Positions 3,350 to 32,248 of a DNA stretch of 64,000 bases are shown here, piece after piece. The stretch covers positions 1 to 64,000 of IMG/VR virus record IMGVR_UViG_3300033149_006617, one strand, 5' to 3'. Below the pieces are notes generated by a model that searched no databases, was not told the origin of the DNA, and saw only the letters and a program-made list of their open reading frames with translations. Source of the stretch: a virus. The number at the start of each line of letters is the position of its first letter. Within the stretch, counting starts at the first letter, position 1. The translations under genes and the position numbers were made by a program.

Positions 3350-4310
3350 ACGTGCTGTTATATGGTCATTGGTATAATGACAGCCCAGGTAATCTTATTA
3401 TACTATCAAACAATGTGCAGAGAATTTGTTTAGTGAATTGGGATTCAATTGTGCATTTGATGGGCCTAATAGTGGGGTGTGGACGCGTCAAAAAGCCGAA
3501 GAAGTTGCCGAGCAATATGATGTAATTTGCTTCGCAGGATGCGGTCAATTGATACCGTGGGATACTACACCTAGCGGTTGGGCTTGGCAGGGTGATGTAG
3601 ATATATCACCTATTATTGGAAAGAAAGTAATCGCGCTGGCGATAGGGGTCAATGAAAGGCATCCATCAGCCGTAGCAGGTGAGAACATAGCATCCCTTTG
3701 CAACGCGGGGGCGATATTTACCGGCAGGGATGACGTAACCACCAGATGGTTATCGCAATACTGTAACGATGTGATGCTTGTGCCTGATTTGGCATTTCTA
3801 TCTGATAGGATACAGCGTGATTCCACGGGCAAAATAGGGATATTGGTGGGAAAACCCATCCCAGGGCAATTACCAGAAATGATCGCGCAGATTTCGGGTA
3901 AAGATATAGTGTTATTTACACACAGTGAGTTTGACCTCTATCGAAATGTGTGGAGCGATGTAGCGGAGGTTTTACAGCCTACTAACATTGACGAATTGGC
4001 AGAGATATACGCCACTTGCGATGCAATTGTAGGCCATCGCTACCATAACGGTATATTGGCATTAGTTCATAGGAAACCTTTTGTATGGGTTATACGTAAT
4101 ATAAAGACTGGTGCATTTGCAGATACTTGGCCTGTGCTTACAGACCATATTGTACCCAGAGGGGATATGACTATTGACGAATGGGCTGAACAAATTGTGG
4201 CGCGTGTCAGCACGCCATTGTCGAGGTACGAAATGTCATTTGCGGATATGCGCAAACATGAAATAAGGAACAAAATGGCGGCATTATTGGAGAGGAGATT
4301 GTCAAAATGA
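3346..4310 (+). CDS. Polysaccharide pyruvyl-transferase-like protein, 5' end in another frame
   Basis: The main frame (usable from TTG 3426) encodes a pyruvyl-transferase-like protein: CFAGCGQLIP, VIALAIGVN, AIFTGRDDVTTRWLSQ, then AIVGHRYHNGILALVHRKPF, the conserved GxRxHxxI-like region near the C-terminus. The N-terminus expected for the family (MNVLLYGHWYNDSPGN) starts at ATG 3346, overlapping the previous stop, but in a different frame. Joining the two needs one extra base near 3392-3396; a second C there would read GNPYYTIKQCAENLF. So the gene is either broken by a 1-nt deletion, carries an assembly error, or is shifted during translation. Family members transfer pyruvate ketals to sugars. 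Confidence 0.6.
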
Positions 4311-5308
4311 CTATATTGATAACTGGCGGATGTGGATTTTTGGGGCACCACTTGGTAGAACATGTACTTAAAAATACCGATTGGGATGTAATAATTTTCG
4401 ATAAGTTGACCTACGCTAGCAGCGGGTATGACAGGCTGAGGGATATTAATGTGTTTGACGACCGGCGGGTAAGGTGTTTTGATGTTGATATAACTCAGCC
4501 CATATCAGAGGGGATAGGAAAAGAAACACCACACGTGGATTATATTGTTCATGCTGCTGCAGAAACACATGTGGATAGAAGCATTGAAGATCCTATACCG
4601 TTTGTTATGACGAATGTCGTAGGGACGACTAATATGCTTCAGTTTGCCCGTTTGTTGCCGGATTTAAAATGGTTTCATTACTTCTCTACTGATGAGGTAT
4701 TTGGGCCAGCACCGTCGGGAGTGGCGTACAAGGAATGGGACAGATATAATTCCGGTAATCCATATGCAGCGTCAAAGGCAGGCGCGGAGGAAATAGTATT
4801 AGCGTTCGGCAATACATATAAGTTACCGATATTTGTGACCCATACCATGAATTTATTTGGTGAACGGCAACATCCTGAGAAGTTCATTCCAAAGGTGATC
4901 CGTAGCGTTCTGAAAGGGGATGTAGTCACCATCCATGCTGACCCCACCAAGACCAAATCTGGAAGTCGCTTCTATTTACATTGTAGGAATGCCGCTGCTG
5001 CTACGTTGTTCCTATTAGAAAACGCCGAACAAAGGGACAAATACAACATAGTAGGAGAAAAGGAAGTCAGCAACCTTGAACTGGCGCAATTCATTGCAGA
5101 TGTGCTTGGTAAACCATTGTCTTATAGACTTGTGGACTTCCATAGTAGCAGACCTGGCCATGACTTGAGGTATGCTCTGGACGGCAGTAAGTTGGCCAGT
5201 ATGGGCTTCAGCTTTCCCAAAACGTTTGAGGAAAGTTTAGAAAAAACTATATTGTGGACGATAGAGCACCTAGAGTGGTTGGGGCCGAAGTGGGGAATAC
5301 CCTTGTGA
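4307..5308 (+). CDS. Nucleotide-sugar 4,6-dehydratase (RmlB-like extended SDR)
   Basis: 333 residues of the extended short-chain dehydrogenase family. Rossmann motif ITGGCGFLGHHL at the N-terminus binds NAD; VHAAAETHVDRSI is the hallmark of dTDP-glucose 4,6-dehydratases; FSTDEVFG carries the Thr-Asp-Glu catalytic triad of dehydratases; YAASKAGAE supplies the Tyr-x3-Lys pair. Length is normal. It probably makes a 4-keto-6-deoxy nucleotide sugar. ATGA overlap with the previous gene and GTGA overlap with the next show one operon of sugar genes. Epimerase/decarboxylase activity is less likely given the TDE motif. Confidence 0.85.
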   Translation: MTILITGGCGFLGHHLVEHVLKNTDWDVIIFDKLTYASSGYDRLRDINVFDDRRVRCFDVDITQPISEGIGKETPHVDYIVHAAAETHVDRSIEDPIPFVMTNVVGTTNMLQFARLLPDLKWFHYFSTDEVFGPAPSGVAYKEWDRYNSGNPYAASKAGAEEIVLAFGNTYKLPIFVTHTMNLFGERQHPEKFIPKVIRSVLKGDVVTIHADPTKTKSGSRFYLHCRNAAAATLFLLENAEQRDKYNIVGEKEVSNLELAQFIADVLGKPLSYRLVDFHSSRPGHDLRYALDGSKLASMGFSFPKTFEESLEKTILWTIEHLEWLGPKWGIPL

Positions 5309-26758: not shown

Positions 26759-27394
26759 ATGGCAATCCAAGTGTATCAGGAGGATATAGCCCGTGTGGCC
26801 GAAAAAGTAATTACCGCCCGCCAATCAGGGGCTAGGAGCTATACTATTGGAGAAACAGTATTCAGGCTGGATGTTGGTGGCTATTGCGCACGTTTTGTAA
26901 GGCAATGCCATGAGGCGGCGATGGGCCTGCATCCCTTCAGATGGGAATTTTGTGCCCCTGACGCCATTGAAATGGAAGAGAATCTAAGGTTGGCCCGCCA
27001 TCAAGTAGAAAACGCTCAGCGCGGGGACATCATTGCATTCAATCGCAATAGCGGCCCACACGGGCATATTGGCATTTATTTGGGAAACGGCAAGGTTGCC
27101 GAGAATACCATTTCAGGCAGGAGGGGTAATCCACGCAAGCCAGGGACTAAAATTTCCCGCATAGATGAAATAGGCCGGTGGAGAATAACCGGCTTCTACC
27201 GCCCGTTACCCAATGGAGACGAAATAAGGCTTATTAATTTGGATTCGCCAGGTTATACCCAGGTCATAGAATGTAATCTATCCATAGAACAGGGAACCGC
27301 AAGGGCTGATGTCCGTCCCTTGTTAGAGGCACTAGGTTATGAGGTGATCCCCCATATAATTGACCAGAGGAAGATTTATGTGAGGAAAATTTAG
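26759..27394 (+). CDS. Cysteine cell-wall hydrolase (CHAP/NlpC-P60-like endolysin)
   Basis: 211 residues. Catalytic Cys in VGGYCARFVRQCHEA near residue 45; His in GPHGHIGIYLGNGKVAEN near residue 101; QRGDIIAFN just before, the usual order of CHAP/NlpC-P60 peptidases. Residues 150-211 form a copper-amine-oxidase-N-like stalk domain (RADVRPLLEALGYEV). It would cut peptidoglycan peptides at the end of infection. The gene meets the polymerase gene tail to tail, sharing stop-codon bases. Confidence 0.7.
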   Translation: MAIQVYQEDIARVAEKVITARQSGARSYTIGETVFRLDVGGYCARFVRQCHEAAMGLHPFRWEFCAPDAIEMEENLRLARHQVENAQRGDIIAFNRNSGPHGHIGIYLGNGKVAENTISGRRGNPRKPGTKISRIDEIGRWRITGFYRPLPNGDEIRLINLDSPGYTQVIECNLSIEQGTARADVRPLLEALGYEVIPHIIDQRKIYVRKI

Positions 27395-29766
27395 CCTTTC
27401 TTTTGGCGTTTTTCTTCGCCCCAAGCCGATGTTACGGCCATGTCAATCGGCATAGAAATATGGATGAATGGCATGGGGGCTTCCATCATTTCCTTGATGA
27501 TTTCCTTGGCTAGCGGTACGCTCTCTTCCAGCACCTCAAAACACAATTCATCGTGTGTCTGGAGCACTACATGAGCGTCCAACCCTTGGGCCGCGAGGGC
27601 GTACTCACACCGTAATTGGGCCACAAATACCAAATCCGACGCTCCACCCTGAATAGGGGTATTGCATGCCTCGCGCTTAGCCTTTTCTCTGCGCCATTTA
27701 TCGGGGCTATTTGCACCAGGTATATGTCTTATCCTGCCAAGCGGATTTCGGACTATTCCAGTCCTCACCGCTGTCTTCCATGTATCATTCTGCCAGCGCC
27801 TTACCATAGGAAATCTACCGAGGAAATTCTCTATGAGAGCCTCCGCTTCACCAACTGTAACCCCGATGTTTTTTGCTAGACCATAAGGGGTCTCACCATA
27901 TAGGATCCCGAAAACAACTGCCTTGGCCCTTGTCCGGTCACTTGGTGTTTGCTTTTCCTTTGGTATGCCGAAAACGGCTTTGCACATTTCTGCATGTATA
28001 TCTTCCTGCCGTATGCTGGCAAGCATAGCAGGGTCGTTTGCTACCGCTGCCTGTACTCGTACTTCTGCTTGCTTGAAGTCAGCCTCAATAAACTTGTAGC
28101 CCTCCCTGGGGACGAACATCTTACGCTCTTCTTTGGGGACATTTTGGAGATTAGGATTACTGGAACTAAGCCTTCCTGTAACCGTTCCACCAACATCCTC
28201 ATCGCGCTCGGCTTCCGCCCGCGCTAGATGGTAGTTGGTATGGATTATATCCTCGCCGATGTAACGTTGCACGTAAGTGCTGTTGGACTTTACAATGCTT
28301 CTATATTCCAATATGAGGTCTATTATGGGATGTTCTAATGCTTTTAATGTACTCTCATCGGTACTCCACCCTGTTTTAGTAGCCTTGACTGGCTGGAGCC
28401 CCAATTCATCAAAAAGTATTTCCTGTAATTGTTTTGGGGAACCGATATTAAATTCTCTTCCTGCCATAATGTAGATTTCTTTCTTTAGTTCCTCCAGCCG
28501 CGCTTTTTGTTGAACGTTGGTCTCCTCAACTGTACTTGTATCTATTCGCACTCCCCTAAGTTCAACGTTTATAAGGCTCCTTTGCATTGGCATCATTATA
28601 CAACGCATGAATTTGTCTAACTTCAATTGCTTTAGCTTCTTACTAAACACTTTATAAAGCCTTATAGTAGCATCAGCATCTCTCGCCGCATAAGGCTCCA
28701 ATATTTTCGGTGGAATGGAGCCGAAGTTCCTCTTCTCCTCTGGGATTTTTTTGTTGTTTTTAATGTGGCTAAACAGATCGTCAACTTCCCTCGACCATGC
28801 TGGCATCCTAGCATACCTCACCGCCGCATGCTTGAGGGAATGAGATTCGAGTTCATTAATAAGGTGATGCGCAAGCAATGTATCCCAATAGTATCCATTT
28901 ATCTTCATGCCTTTGTTGCGGAGCACCTTTACATCAAATGCACCAAAATGTGCCACTTTCCTCCATTTGTAGGAGCCAAATAATTCTAATAGCCTCTTAG
29001 CAATCTCCAACTTGTCATGCTCCCCCCACACCGATTTAAATTCGCGCATAATAGGGAGCACATATCCTCTCCCAGGTTTATCCGAAAACGAAAAGCAAAT
29101 AACATCTGTATCATAAGGATTAGTGCTGGTAGTCTCCAGATCAAATGACCAGATTTTGGAGCCATAGAGCACATTCCACAAGTCGTCCAACTTATCGTGG
29201 GTATCAATGATTATTACGTTGGTGTCAACTGTTTCTACTTTTTTGCCGACCAAAAAATCGCGCAAAGAACGGATACCCACCATAAACTCCGGTATATTAC
29301 CTGGATTATGTAGGCAAGCAGATGGATGAATTATGGGGAGGAGCATACAGTCAAATTCTTCGTTGTATTCCCATATCGCATTGGCCTTATTTATACCGGT
29401 CCTGCCGGTCAATGTTTGATATGCAACGGCACCGAAGGCCACAATTGCCTTGCGTGGATACTTTCTGATGACCTTCTCCAGGTATTCCCTGCACGCATTG
29501 ATGGTAGCAGTTGTAGCCTTGTAATTTTCGCCGCCAGGAAAGCACCTCGTAGCATTCGTAACCAAAAATGACTTCCTATCAAGTCCTACAGATGCTAATG
29601 CCTTATCCAGAAACTTACCGGCAGGACCTGTAAAAACCCTGCCGGTCTCGTTTTCCGTTTCTCCAGGCTCCTGGCCTACCATCACAATATCAGCCTTGGC
29701 GGGGCCAGTGTCCTTTACCTTTCCCTGTAGCCCCAAATGATTCAATGGGCAGTCATTACATCCCAT
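27391..29766 (-). CDS. Uracil-DNA glycosylase (family 4) / DNA polymerase I fusion
   Basis: 791 residues. Residues 1-180: family-4 UDG with Cys pair (MGCNDCPLN), VGQEPGETENETGRVFTGPA, FLVTNATRCFPGG, IHPSACL. Residues 195-370: 3'-5' exonuclease, WSFDLETTSTN (DxE) and YAARDADATIRLY (YxxxD). Residues 400-791: family-A polymerase, motif A IEADFKQAEVR, motif B RAKAVVFGILYG with Phe at the 762-equivalent, motif C VLQTHDELCFEV. No 5' nuclease domain. The start overlaps the stop of the small upstream gene. The N-terminal UDG resembles SPO1-type phage polymerases and may tether repair to replication. Confidence 0.9.
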   Translation of the reverse strand: MGCNDCPLNHLGLQGKVKDTGPAKADIVMVGQEPGETENETGRVFTGPAGKFLDKALASVGLDRKSFLVTNATRCFPGGENYKATTATINACREYLEKVIRKYPRKAIVAFGAVAYQTLTGRTGINKANAIWEYNEEFDCMLLPIIHPSACLHNPGNIPEFMVGIRSLRDFLVGKKVETVDTNVIIIDTHDKLDDLWNVLYGSKIWSFDLETTSTNPYDTDVICFSFSDKPGRGYVLPIMREFKSVWGEHDKLEIAKRLLELFGSYKWRKVAHFGAFDVKVLRNKGMKINGYYWDTLLAHHLINELESHSLKHAAVRYARMPAWSREVDDLFSHIKNNKKIPEEKRNFGSIPPKILEPYAARDADATIRLYKVFSKKLKQLKLDKFMRCIMMPMQRSLINVELRGVRIDTSTVEETNVQQKARLEELKKEIYIMAGREFNIGSPKQLQEILFDELGLQPVKATKTGWSTDESTLKALEHPIIDLILEYRSIVKSNSTYVQRYIGEDIIHTNYHLARAEAERDEDVGGTVTGRLSSSNPNLQNVPKEERKMFVPREGYKFIEADFKQAEVRVQAAVANDPAMLASIRQEDIHAEMCKAVFGIPKEKQTPSDRTRAKAVVFGILYGETPYGLAKNIGVTVGEAEALIENFLGRFPMVRRWQNDTWKTAVRTGIVRNPLGRIRHIPGANSPDKWRREKAKREACNTPIQGGASDLVFVAQLRCEYALAAQGLDAHVVLQTHDELCFEVLEESVPLAKEIIKEMMEAPMPFIHISMPIDMAVTSAWGEEKRQKKG

Positions 29767-29885
29767 TAACGATTCCTACCTTTACGCCCACCTTTGGGCG
29801 GATTGCATCCTCCTCGGCCTCTATTGGCCCCTACGCCTCTTCCACTGCCGTCTTTCTTTGGAACGCCCTTTTTTGATTTGGCCAT
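29766..29885 (-). CDS. 39-residue Gly/Arg/Lys-rich protein
   Basis: ATG at 29885 with GGGAGGTGAT upstream; the stop overlaps the polymerase start (TAATG). Composition is Gly, Lys and Arg with repeated GRG/GGRKGR motifs (RGVGANRGRGGCNPPKGGR), like RNA-binding RGG tails. Too short for a known family. Between thioredoxin and polymerase in the Ro60 operon, so RNA or DNA binding is a reasonable guess. Confidence 0.6.
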   Translation of the reverse strand: MAKSKKGVPKKDGSGRGVGANRGRGGCNPPKGGRKGRNR

Positions 29886-29891
29886 ACTCTA

Positions 29892-30227
29892 TCACCTCCC
29901 ATCATTTAAGGCCCTCTCGATTGCTTGGATAATTTGCTCCTTAGATCGAGACCCCACAATCATCTCGGCCACGTTGCCGCTCTTAAGAAGTAACAATGTC
30001 GGGAGGCTCCTAATACCAAAGCGTGTGGCTAGCCTTGGATTGTCATTTACATCTACCTCCCCGACCCTAAGTCGCCCACTATATTCATTAGCGATAGCCT
30101 CTACGATAGGGGCAATTATTTTACATGGCTTACACCAATCCGCCCCAAAGTCCAAAAGCACCGGCTGTTTCGATTGAATAACCTCCGATTCAAAGTTATC
30201 AGTTGTAATCGTGATGATGTCAGCCAT
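29892..30227 (-). CDS. Thioredoxin
   Basis: 111 residues, a complete thioredoxin: VLLDFGADWCKPCKIIAPIV with the redox CxxC (CKPC instead of the usual CGPC), VDVNDNPRLATRFGIRSLPT with the cis-Pro, and LLLLKSGNVAEMIVG. Normal length. It may reduce ribonucleotide reductase or other proteins. Placement just before a family-A polymerase recalls T7, where host thioredoxin is the processivity factor, but I see no thioredoxin-binding-domain insertion to support that. Confidence 0.9.
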   Translation of the reverse strand: MADIITITTDNFESEVIQSKQPVLLDFGADWCKPCKIIAPIVEAIANEYSGRLRVGEVDVNDNPRLATRFGIRSLPTLLLLKSGNVAEMIVGSRSKEQIIQAIERALNDGR

Positions 30228-30242
30228 TTACTTGCCCCCGTT

Positions 30243-31850
30243 TCAAGCCCGAATAAAATCAGAAATCAAATTTGGTGTAGCCATATCAAATCCCACCACG
30301 TCCAACATACCAGCATCGTTAGGATCAGCAATTGAAAATCCTGTGCTGGTCATAGCTACCACAATTAATTTAGCAGGGATGCCTGTCTCTCGGCGATATT
30401 TCTGCAATGCTTGGCAAGGATGAATGTCACCTGCCCATGTTTCATTATCGGTATAAATGACAAACGCATCAATCTCCAAGCCATCCTTGAGCGCGGACAG
30501 CATGGGCAAGGCACAATCAGTGCCACCCCACGGTATATCCTCAATTTGACGAATAACATCATCAAGCCGTTGCCTGCTACTTATGCTAACCGGCACTAAG
30601 AGGGAATCCTCCCACCAATTAGAAGGCCCGCTAGCAAAAGCCGTCACAATAGAATTAAGCTCCACCCGTTGAGTAACCAATGCCATAGCAGCAGATGCCC
30701 CCCTGGGGGTTAGGTTAGGAATACCACTAACACCCGCAGCCCCCATAGAGCCTGATACATCCAATGCCAACATTATCCGTTTATTCGTAGGTTCTACATT
30801 ACCAAATGCCATGTAGAATGCTCCATCAAGAGCATCTACAATAGACGCTATAGGTGCCCATCTCAATTTCCCACGAGCTCCCTGACCGGATTTATATGTA
30901 GTCAATGCCGCCAGCACGCCGATAGGATGCACCCGTGCTCTACGGAGTGCCGCTTCATCAGATACCTTTTCAATTACCTTTGACGTTACACTACTCAGTG
31001 GTTTGAGTGCCCCATTTGCCGTCATGCGCCCCAAATTGCGGATGAGCGCGGTGAGTGGCATATTGGGCACTAATGCTTGCCAAACATCCGGAGAGTTAAT
31101 TACATCACCAGGTACCATCTCCCAAGTAACCCACGGATGGTTATTAATTATTCTTATTGTTTCCTTGGGATTTCGCGCTTTCTGGAGAGCCTCGAATACT
31201 TTGATAGTTTCGGGTAGGTCCTCAGTGCTCTCGTGCTGAGTAACCCAATGGAACAACGCATTTAATGCGGGATCAATTGCCTTCGGATGGGCTAATCTCA
31301 ACAAATCCCTATGAGTCCAGCCATATCTTTGGCGATATTTGACTATTTGGTAGGCAAGTCTCTCAACTTCCTTATCAGTATACCATCGGGCTACTGCCCG
31401 TCTAAGGCTCCGCCCCCAGCCACGAAACGACTCTACTGCATCTGCAAATTGAAAGATATGGGTTCCGATACGGCATACTTGTGGGAGCGCATCCAATGCC
31501 GCCTTCTTGGTCTTATCATCCCCCATACCTGCAGCCATCGCTAGCACAAAGATGGCAGCGTCATTTTTAGGTGCTCTGCCCTCCTCACTGATTTCAACGG
31601 TTCGATTAACTACTCGTTGCCCGTCTGCTTGTATGCACCGCAGGACCGCCTGGGCATTATCCTTGGTGAATTCATGCTCACCCACATAGTAAGTACCACC
31701 CTCACTTCCCAGAATCAAAAAGCGGTCAAGTCGGACCCAATCATCAACCTCAAATACATACCCACCCGCATCGTTTACTACCTGAGACTTACCTGGGATC
31801 GGCTCTGATTGTGGGGTCTTTTGGGTTTGGAAGTGCTTTGCGTACCGCAT
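30243..31850 (-). CDS. rsr: Ro60 / Rsr orthologue (TROVE-vWA RNA-binding protein)
   Basis: 535 residues, full length for the family. ATG 31850 is 8 nt from GGAG; ATG 31856 is too close. The N-terminal TROVE HEAT-repeat ring includes VDDWVRLDRFLILGSEGGTY, VLAMAAGMGDDKTKKAALD, RTHIFQFADA-like (GTHIFQFADAVESFRGWGR) and YRQRYGWTHRDLLRLAHP, all Ro60 hallmarks. The C-terminal vWA domain (from about residue 360) has the MIDAS: ALDVSGSMG, GGTDC, YTDNETW. Ro60 binds misfolded RNAs in its ring and Y RNAs outside, and in bacteria tethers PNPase. The gene is preceded by three Y-RNA-like RNAs. Confidence 0.92.
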   Translation of the reverse strand: MRYAKHFQTQKTPQSEPIPGKSQVVNDAGGYVFEVDDWVRLDRFLILGSEGGTYYVGEHEFTKDNAQAVLRCIQADGQRVVNRTVEISEEGRAPKNDAAIFVLAMAAGMGDDKTKKAALDALPQVCRIGTHIFQFADAVESFRGWGRSLRRAVARWYTDKEVERLAYQIVKYRQRYGWTHRDLLRLAHPKAIDPALNALFHWVTQHESTEDLPETIKVFEALQKARNPKETIRIINNHPWVTWEMVPGDVINSPDVWQALVPNMPLTALIRNLGRMTANGALKPLSSVTSKVIEKVSDEAALRRARVHPIGVLAALTTYKSGQGARGKLRWAPIASIVDALDGAFYMAFGNVEPTNKRIMLALDVSGSMGAAGVSGIPNLTPRGASAAMALVTQRVELNSIVTAFASGPSNWWEDSLLVPVSISSRQRLDDVIRQIEDIPWGGTDCALPMLSALKDGLEIDAFVIYTDNETWAGDIHPCQALQKYRRETGIPAKLIVVAMTSTGFSIADPNDAGMLDVVGFDMATPNLISDFIRA

Positions 31851-31873
31851 GTTCATCTCTCCTTAGATTTTAA

Positions 31874-31977
31874 TTCTGGGCAAGGGATGCGATGCGGAGT
31901 ATTGCCCCCATATTGGGCTAGCAAGGCATATACCTTGCAGGAATCGAACCTGATAACCACATCGCTCCGGCCCAGAA
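31874..31977 (-). ncRNA. Y-RNA-like RNA 1 with tRNA-mimic domain (YrlA type)
   Basis: A 104-nt RNA. Ends pair: 31971-31977 with 31874-31880 (7 bp). Next a conserved internal bulge (CCGGAG on the 5' side, ATCCCTTG on the 3' side), then a stem 31957-31965 with 31889-31897 (8 of 9 pairs), then TTATC. Inside it: T-arm with loop TTCGATT (31938-31952), a closed stem in the acceptor position (31922-31937), TA, and a GCCC/GGGC D-arm (31904-31918). T-arm, acceptor, D-arm order is circularly permuted relative to tRNA, as known for bacterial YrlA. It ends 11 nt before the Ro60 ribosome site. Confidence 0.8.
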
Positions 31978-31991
31978 AATTTAGTGCTTAA

Positions 31992-32118
31992 TGTCGGGCA
32001 AGGGATGTGGGGCGGAAATTCGCGCTCTACCATTGAGCTACTGGGGAGACCCCCAGACGGGACTCGAACCCGCAACCACGCCATTCCAAGTGGATAACCG
32101 CCCCACTCCGGCCCGACA
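31992..32118 (-). ncRNA. Y-RNA-like RNA 2 with tRNA-mimic domain (YrlA type)
   Basis: A 127-nt RNA with the same plan. Terminal stem 32112-32118 with 31992-31998 (7 bp); bulge CCGGAG opposite CATCCCTTG; second stem 32098-32105 with 32008-32015 (8 perfect bp); then TTATC. tRNA-like part: T-arm 32057-32073 with the classic loop TTCGAGT, a 6-bp stem closed by GTCT (32041-32056) replacing the acceptor ends, T8-A9-like TA, then GCTC-AATGGTA-GAGC (32024-32038), an almost perfect tRNA D-arm. There is no free acceptor or CCA, so it cannot be a normal tRNA. The sequence between D-arm and Y stem stands in for the anticodon arm. Confidence 0.85.
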
Positions 32119-32126
32119 AACATAGG

Positions 32127-32197
32127 GTTCTGGATAAGTAAACGGGTAGCCGAGTGCTCTTTGTCCTAAAGATAACGGCTCCCCTCCGACCCAGAAC
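32127..32197 (-). ncRNA. Minimal Y-RNA-like RNA 3 without tRNA mimic
   Basis: A 71-nt RNA, first in the transcript. Terminal stem 32191-32197 with 32127-32133 (7 bp), 5' bulge GTCGGAG and 3' CTTA-containing bulge as in the other two, second stem GGG-A-GCCG with CGGC-TA-CCC, then TTATC, and only a short hairpin (TCTTT/AAAGA) in place of the tRNA-like domain. Thus it holds only the presumed Ro60-binding part, like metazoan Y RNAs. On the plus strand it mimics a tRNA acceptor ending in ACCA by chance, but has no T-arm. Confidence 0.65.
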
Positions 32198-32219: not shown

Positions 32220-32248
32220 AGTCTACACCAATTTGGGTGGTTTGTCAA
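32220..32248 (-). promoter_or_regulatory. Promoter of the Y RNA-Ro60-polymerase operon
   Basis: On the minus strand TTGACA (32248-32243), a 17-nt spacer and TAGACT (32225-32220). Transcription would start near 32213, about 16 nt before Y RNA 3. No other promoter was seen before the Ro60 gene, so the RNAs and the mRNA probably share a transcript that is processed. Confidence 0.7.

Follow-up and report, generated by a model that had tools for sequence, protein, structure and literature searches.

A short Y RNA gene adjoining a phage Ro60 gene

This study confirmed that positions 32127-32197 of the analysed stretch of tailed-phage DNA hold a real Y RNA gene, which adjoins a phage Ro60 gene on the minus strand. 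The RNA, called RNA 3 here, lacks a tRNA-like domain, and this short form is genuine and not unique, so that it is no oddity of one phage. The window, meaning the whole 64-kb stretch that was analysed, belongs to a virus record of 67,755 bases, whose source is a tailed phage with genes for a tape measure protein, a DnaB-like helicase, a primase, RecA, RuvB and an integrase. The features that the text refers to are as follows.

32127-32197, minus strand: RNA 3, a 71-nt short Y RNA without tRNA-like domain (fold, covariance model, arm-swap test)
32189-32197, minus strand: RNA 3, 5' arm of the lower (Ro60-type) helix, GUUCUGGGU, paired to 32127-32135
32188, minus strand: RNA 3, bulged C, unpaired in the fold
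32171-32175, minus strand: RNA 3, UUAUC at the 5' edge of the apical loop
32127-32135, minus strand: RNA 3, 3' arm of the lower helix, AUCCAGAAC
31992-32118, minus strand: RNA 2, a YrlA-type Y RNA with T arm, acceptor hairpin and D arm (Rfam YrlA)
31874-31977, minus strand: RNA 1, a YrlA-type Y RNA with a more degenerate tRNA-like domain (Rfam YrlA)
32220-32248, minus strand: promoter-like TTGACA-17-TAGACT just upstream of RNA 3 (10 of 12 positions, a consensus match only)
30243-31856, minus strand: Ro60 gene with TROVE and vWA domains (PF25045, 2.4e-60; PF05731, 2e-47)

The fold of RNA 3 begins with an outer helix of 9 bp (GUUCUGGGU/AUCCAGAAC), where Y RNAs in general have about 7 bp or more, and beside it C32188 stays unpaired on the 5' strand. 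In the inner part of the minimum free energy (MFE) structure, GGA lies opposite UUU and ACUU is left unpaired on the opposite strand, giving the opposite-strand bulge of a Y RNA with 4 nt, versus about 3 nt in Y RNAs in general. The upper stem follows with 8 bp and one bulge (GGGAGCCG/CGGCUACCC) and closes an apical loop of 23 nt, while the 3' flank reads CCTATG. The MFE was -28.6 kcal/mol with a z-score of -3.47, and none of 200 shuffled sequences folded as low. Among the aligned Y RNAs, the column of the bulged C holds C in 82 of 83 sequences, and the binding of animal Y RNAs by Ro60 depends critically on this nucleotide (PMC4030889, PMC11277228). The coordinates and the anatomy given in the preliminary description (both stems, the bulge, TTATC and a length of 71 nt) were borne out by the fold and by a position check. 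The same description had placed a short hairpin where RNAs 1 and 2 carry the tRNA mimic: the mimic is indeed absent, but the apical hairpin of RNA 3 is weak, and the alignment gives no support for it as a conserved element of short Y RNAs.

The Y RNA array and its Ro60 gene

On the minus strand, the order is RNA 3, RNA 2, RNA 1 and then the ATG of Ro60, so the array lies directly 5' of the Ro60 gene. RNA 2 scored 54.9 bits (E 1.1e-11) against Rfam YrlA, whose gathering score is 69, and RNA 1 scored 22.3 bits (E 0.03) with a fold z-score of -4.92; at gathering scores, Rfam gave no match anywhere in the 64-kb window. The loops between the upper stems measure 59 nt in RNA 1 and 82 nt in RNA 2, both with T-arm and D-arm motifs, whereas the 23-nt loop of RNA 3 contains none of these motifs. 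As ARAGORN found no tRNA in the window, RNAs 1-3 are not mistaken tRNAs.

The adjoining gene product matches solved Ro60 and Rsr structures over its full length (E 1.4e-131 against PDB entry 1yvp), and its His190 is aligned with human His187, which is required for Y RNA contact (PMC4030889). Beside ro60, the window also carries a gene for a 791-aa DNA polymerase (27391-30227, phrog_17) together with a thioredoxin gene (PF00085). This pair recalls phages in which thioredoxin serves as a clamp for the polymerase, and the first residues of the polymerase resemble, by eye, uracil-DNA glycosylase.

Only 17 nt separate the end of RNA 1 from the Ro60 ATG, and a search of the minus strand gave no terminator-like site from the array to the gene. 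This arrangement, which is similarly tight in many other loci, would suit an array that acts as the 5' leader of ro60, where Ro60 bound to RNAs 3-1 would feed back on its own mRNA. We consider such autoregulation quite improbable, since known Y RNAs are stable, separate molecules and since they lie downstream of ro60 in some loci (L012, L044, L100 and L104), where leader control is impossible.

Conservation and covariation of the stems

To build the covariance model used in this study (R2), 30 short Y RNAs were taken from other phages, with the window left out, and were aligned by sequence before pairs were counted. Changes on both sides were found in 13 of 15 pairs, and 88% of the cells were paired, compared with 37-47% when the partners were slid. 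The 30 sequences had been chosen partly for pairing, and two independent tests were therefore added. A further model, made from sequence alone with the first ten short Y RNAs, was set aside because RNA 3 was among them.

When R2 was run on the 64-kb window, RNA 3 was the top match (32130-32194, 38.7 bits, E 1.2e-6), followed by RNA 2 (35.3 bits) and RNA 1 (30.8 bits), and nothing beyond these three was matched up to E 10. For the arm-swap test, a search that used only the 5' sequence located 119 Y 5' boxes; the DNA downstream of each box was then scored with the box's own 5' arm and with foreign arms. The own arm of RNA 3 scored 29.7, versus 25.1 for the best of 40 foreign arms; RNAs 1, 2 and 3 each beat all 40, and the mean over all boxes was 26.6 for own versus 18.1 for swapped arms. 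The fold z-score, the match to the leave-out model and the arm-swap test together rule out RNA 3 as a chance hairpin. These data show that RNA 3 has the covarying stems across relatives by which a Y RNA is generally recognised, and they agree with its initial identification as a Y RNA without the tRNA domain, given the motif-free loop and the R2 E-value. Related loci lacking the element, or showing no conserved pairing, had been named beforehand as the outcome that would speak against it. The search of related phages instead recovered the same short form with conserved and covarying stems.

In RNA 3 the inner GGA/UUU pairing is not as strong as in RNAs 1 and 2, which speaks against a functional ligand, and the inner pair of its lower helix has changed from C-G to U-A, a change that is also present in three of the training sequences. 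The weaker pairing, and the fact that RNA 3 is nearest to its own array mates, could fit a functionless, degenerate YrlA copy that has lost its tRNA domain. Compensatory changes keep the stems, however, and dozens of distant loci share the short architecture, so this explanation was already disfavoured and is very improbable.

Distribution of short Y RNAs

With matches accepted up to E 1, R2 found 117 Y RNAs in 42 phage Ro60 loci and 187 in a set that combined 79 loci from bacteria with 10 from GenBank phages. Every one of the 304 lies on the same strand as ro60, which indicates that they are not chance matches. Their lengths are bimodal, at about 56-86 versus 91-145 nt, and short and long forms co-occur in loci. 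The stronger matches comprise 60 short RNAs without tRNA-arm motifs in phages and 82 in the bacterial and GenBank-phage set. At least one short form without recognisable tRNA arms was present in 33 of the 34 phage loci with matches, as were short forms in most sampled bacterial Ro60 loci, although such fractions are favoured by a model built from short forms and some of the sets are near-duplicates (e.g., L100, L104, L105 and L111).

Short forms are also carried by cultured phages. Mycobacterium phage Sparky (L050) has one long and one short Y RNA (1093-1221 and 1241-1305), Nappy and Breeniome each have two short and one long, and Gordonia phage BearBQ also carries a short form. Bacterial Y RNAs have usually been described through their tRNA-like domain, while short forms without this domain are widespread; cultured mycobacteriophages with both forms, such as Sparky, allow the direct question of what the tRNA-like module adds.

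Two further observations concern these loci. Eleven Y-like RNA matches, short and long mixed, are arranged in two clusters (4122-4925 and 1207-1605) in locus L032. In the GenBank phage regions that were retrieved, proteins, tRNAs and one tmRNA are annotated and zero Y RNAs, and this includes the ten Ro60 regions where Y RNAs were found in this study; the Y RNAs beside Ro60 are left unannotated in L050, L051, L052, L133-L135, L137 and L140 next to annotated tRNAs.

Inside-out tRNA-Y chimeras

A pattern search of the Ro60 loci also yielded 27 distinct sequences of an inside-out form, namely tRNA-like RNAs with acceptor, D and T arms in which a Y stem with a short outer loop (closed by GCAA, UUCG and others) replaces the anticodon arm. 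They occur at L047:4658-4781, L001:3507-3628, L002:4584-4708 and L004:6756-6872 and in the bacterial loci L054, L055, L062, L065, L069-L071, L076, L083, L084, L087, L090, L091, L114 (two) and L124-L128; the window contains none. The fold of L047:4654-4790 shows the inside-out arrangement exactly (z -3.24), the L001 and L002 candidates fold less clearly (z about -1.9), and two of the chimeras (L071 and L084) are scored by Rfam as tRNAs interrupted by a long insert. It is known that canonical YrlA represents a circularly permuted tRNA (PMC11472068). For the opposite permutation, with the Y stem inside the tRNA, no description was found in the literature searched, and these chimeras may be more novel than RNA 3 itself.

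Proposed function of RNA 3

The reading that we lean towards, with slightly better than even confidence, is that RNA 3 is a functional minimal Ro60 ligand and that the Y-array makes both tethered and untethered Ro60. Several findings on other systems provide the frame: Ro60 binds the outer helix and the bulged C of Y RNA on the outer surface of its ring, at a site overlapping that for misfolded RNA, and the Deinococcus Y RNA sequesters Rsr (PMC4030889, PMC4726728). In the same bacterium, Y RNA tethers PNPase to Rsr, with the tRNA-like domain described as the effector part (PMC8394870).

On this basis, RNA 3 would be transcribed first in the Y-array/ro60 transcription unit and would fold into the module recognised by Ro60, composed of the outer helix, the bulged C, the inner stem and the UUAUC-edged loop. 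It would then bind to the outer side of the phage Ro60 ring, at the face for Y RNAs, and, since this face overlaps the misfolded-RNA site, it could stabilise Ro60 and limit substrate access as a gate or placeholder. Of the two roles named in the preliminary description, the gate is plausible and the decoy conjectural. As RNA 3 has no tRNA-like module, its particle would presumably be unable to recruit the partners of that module, by PNPase tethering or through tRNA enzymes, and the phage would obtain tethered and untethered Ro60 from one array.

The UUAYC motif was found in 51 of 60 short and 33 of 38 long phage matches and in 72 of 82 short and 39 of 41 long matches of the bacterial and GenBank-phage set. 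Being common to both forms, it is no special mark of RNA 3. Its retention in about 85-95% of short and long forms implies that the loop may bind a partner and that the short form may do more than cap the ring passively; in nematode stem-bulge RNAs (sbRNAs), UUAUC is needed for function, namely for activity in DNA replication in vitro (PMC4726728, PMC4450293). In addition, a regular-expression search within flanks of 3-5 kb, which may miss distant long forms, found a short form as the sole Y RNA near Ro60 in three phage loci (L013, L027 and L135) and three bacterial loci (L053, L056 and L102). Such loci suggest that short forms act on their own rather than merely as decoys for long ones, and they argue against the tethered/untethered view in that a short form need not be the foil to a long one. 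The short Y RNA could thus be an active effector whose conserved UUAYC edge, shared with nematode sbRNAs and vertebrate Y RNAs, binds a partner, with the tRNA-like module as an optional extra. We regard this as rather unlikely, as no bacterial partner is known, UUAYC could merely shape the loop, and the long forms could lie beyond the flanks.

Evolution of short and long forms

Within a locus, the stem identity between short and long forms was 0.674, whereas 0.600 +/- 0.015 was expected; between loci, it was 0.588 for short-short and 0.599 for short-long pairs. The closest relatives of RNA 3 are likewise its own array mates, RNAs 1 and 2. A separate, old lineage of short forms is unsupported, since between-locus identity is no higher among short forms than between short and long ones, and the likeness within loci is more likely to reflect duplication or gene conversion at the locus, or co-evolution with its Ro60. 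Judged from these identities, the short architecture looks as if it has come and gone within individual loci, or has been maintained in concert with the Ro60 of each locus.

A broader reading, which we offer tentatively and with a chance well short of even, is that bacteria and phages share a Y RNA class homologous both to nematode sbRNAs and to vertebrate Y RNAs, UUAUC included, and that short Y RNAs represent its common core. One Ro60 locus could then decorate this core in three ways: bare, as in RNA 3; with a tRNA mimic inside the Y loop, as in YrlA; or with the Y stem in place of a tRNA anticodon arm. If this is true, UUAUC would point to an ancient function, older than the part it plays in the DNA replication of animals.

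Comparison with known Y RNA families

For over 250 bacteria and phages, Chen et al. in 2014 reportedly located Y RNAs in the vicinity of Ro60, and at least one Y RNA per species is said to have carried a tRNA-like domain. This would imply others without the domain, and RNA 3 is therefore filed as belonging to an already known kind of Y RNA. Past descriptions may have understated both how broad the short class is and how it matches the nematode model.

RNA 3 shares with YrlA (RF02553) the Ro60-binding stem with the bulged C and the neighbourhood beside ro60, but it lacks the module of T arm, acceptor and D arm; RF02553 gave no match in RNA 3, while RNAs 1 and 2 do match. Salmonella YrlB is likewise not known to carry a tRNA module. 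It accompanies YrlA in one operon, rsr-yrlB-yrlA-rtcBA (PMC9879122, PMC7790460), which may be compared with the array of RNA 3. In a review, the length of bacterial Y RNAs is put at 90-150 nt, with a tRNA-like domain (PMC8394870), and RNA 3 has 71 nt. Its best Rfam match was the Deinococcus radiodurans Y RNA (RF01053; 17.4 bits, E 0.32, not significant), a 126-position model with a large loop domain, unlike RNA 3.

With nematode sbRNAs (RF01656) and vertebrate Y RNAs, RNA 3 shares the outer helix, the bulged C, the upper stem, UUAUC at the loop edge and the absence of a tRNA domain. It differs from the metazoan RNAs in lacking the upper-stem A/GUG-CAC/U and the 3' oligo-U and in having a shorter loop, and neither RF01656 nor RF00019 matched it up to E 10. 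The suggestion of the preliminary description that the layout is more metazoan than YrlA-like is thus not borne out for RNA 3 itself, given its Deinococcus best match and the missing GUG-CAC and oligo-U, but it holds for the class. Nine bacterial short Y RNAs exceeded the Rfam gathering score for RF01656 (best 50.8 bits), whereas none in the same sequence set passed that for YrlA. Four of the nine are in L056 (2762-2828, 2848-2918, 4752-4815 and 4831-4897), and one each is in L053, L095, L100, L103 and L116. That short bacterial Y RNAs resemble nematode stem-bulge RNAs is relevant to a possible ancient function of the UUAUC loop.
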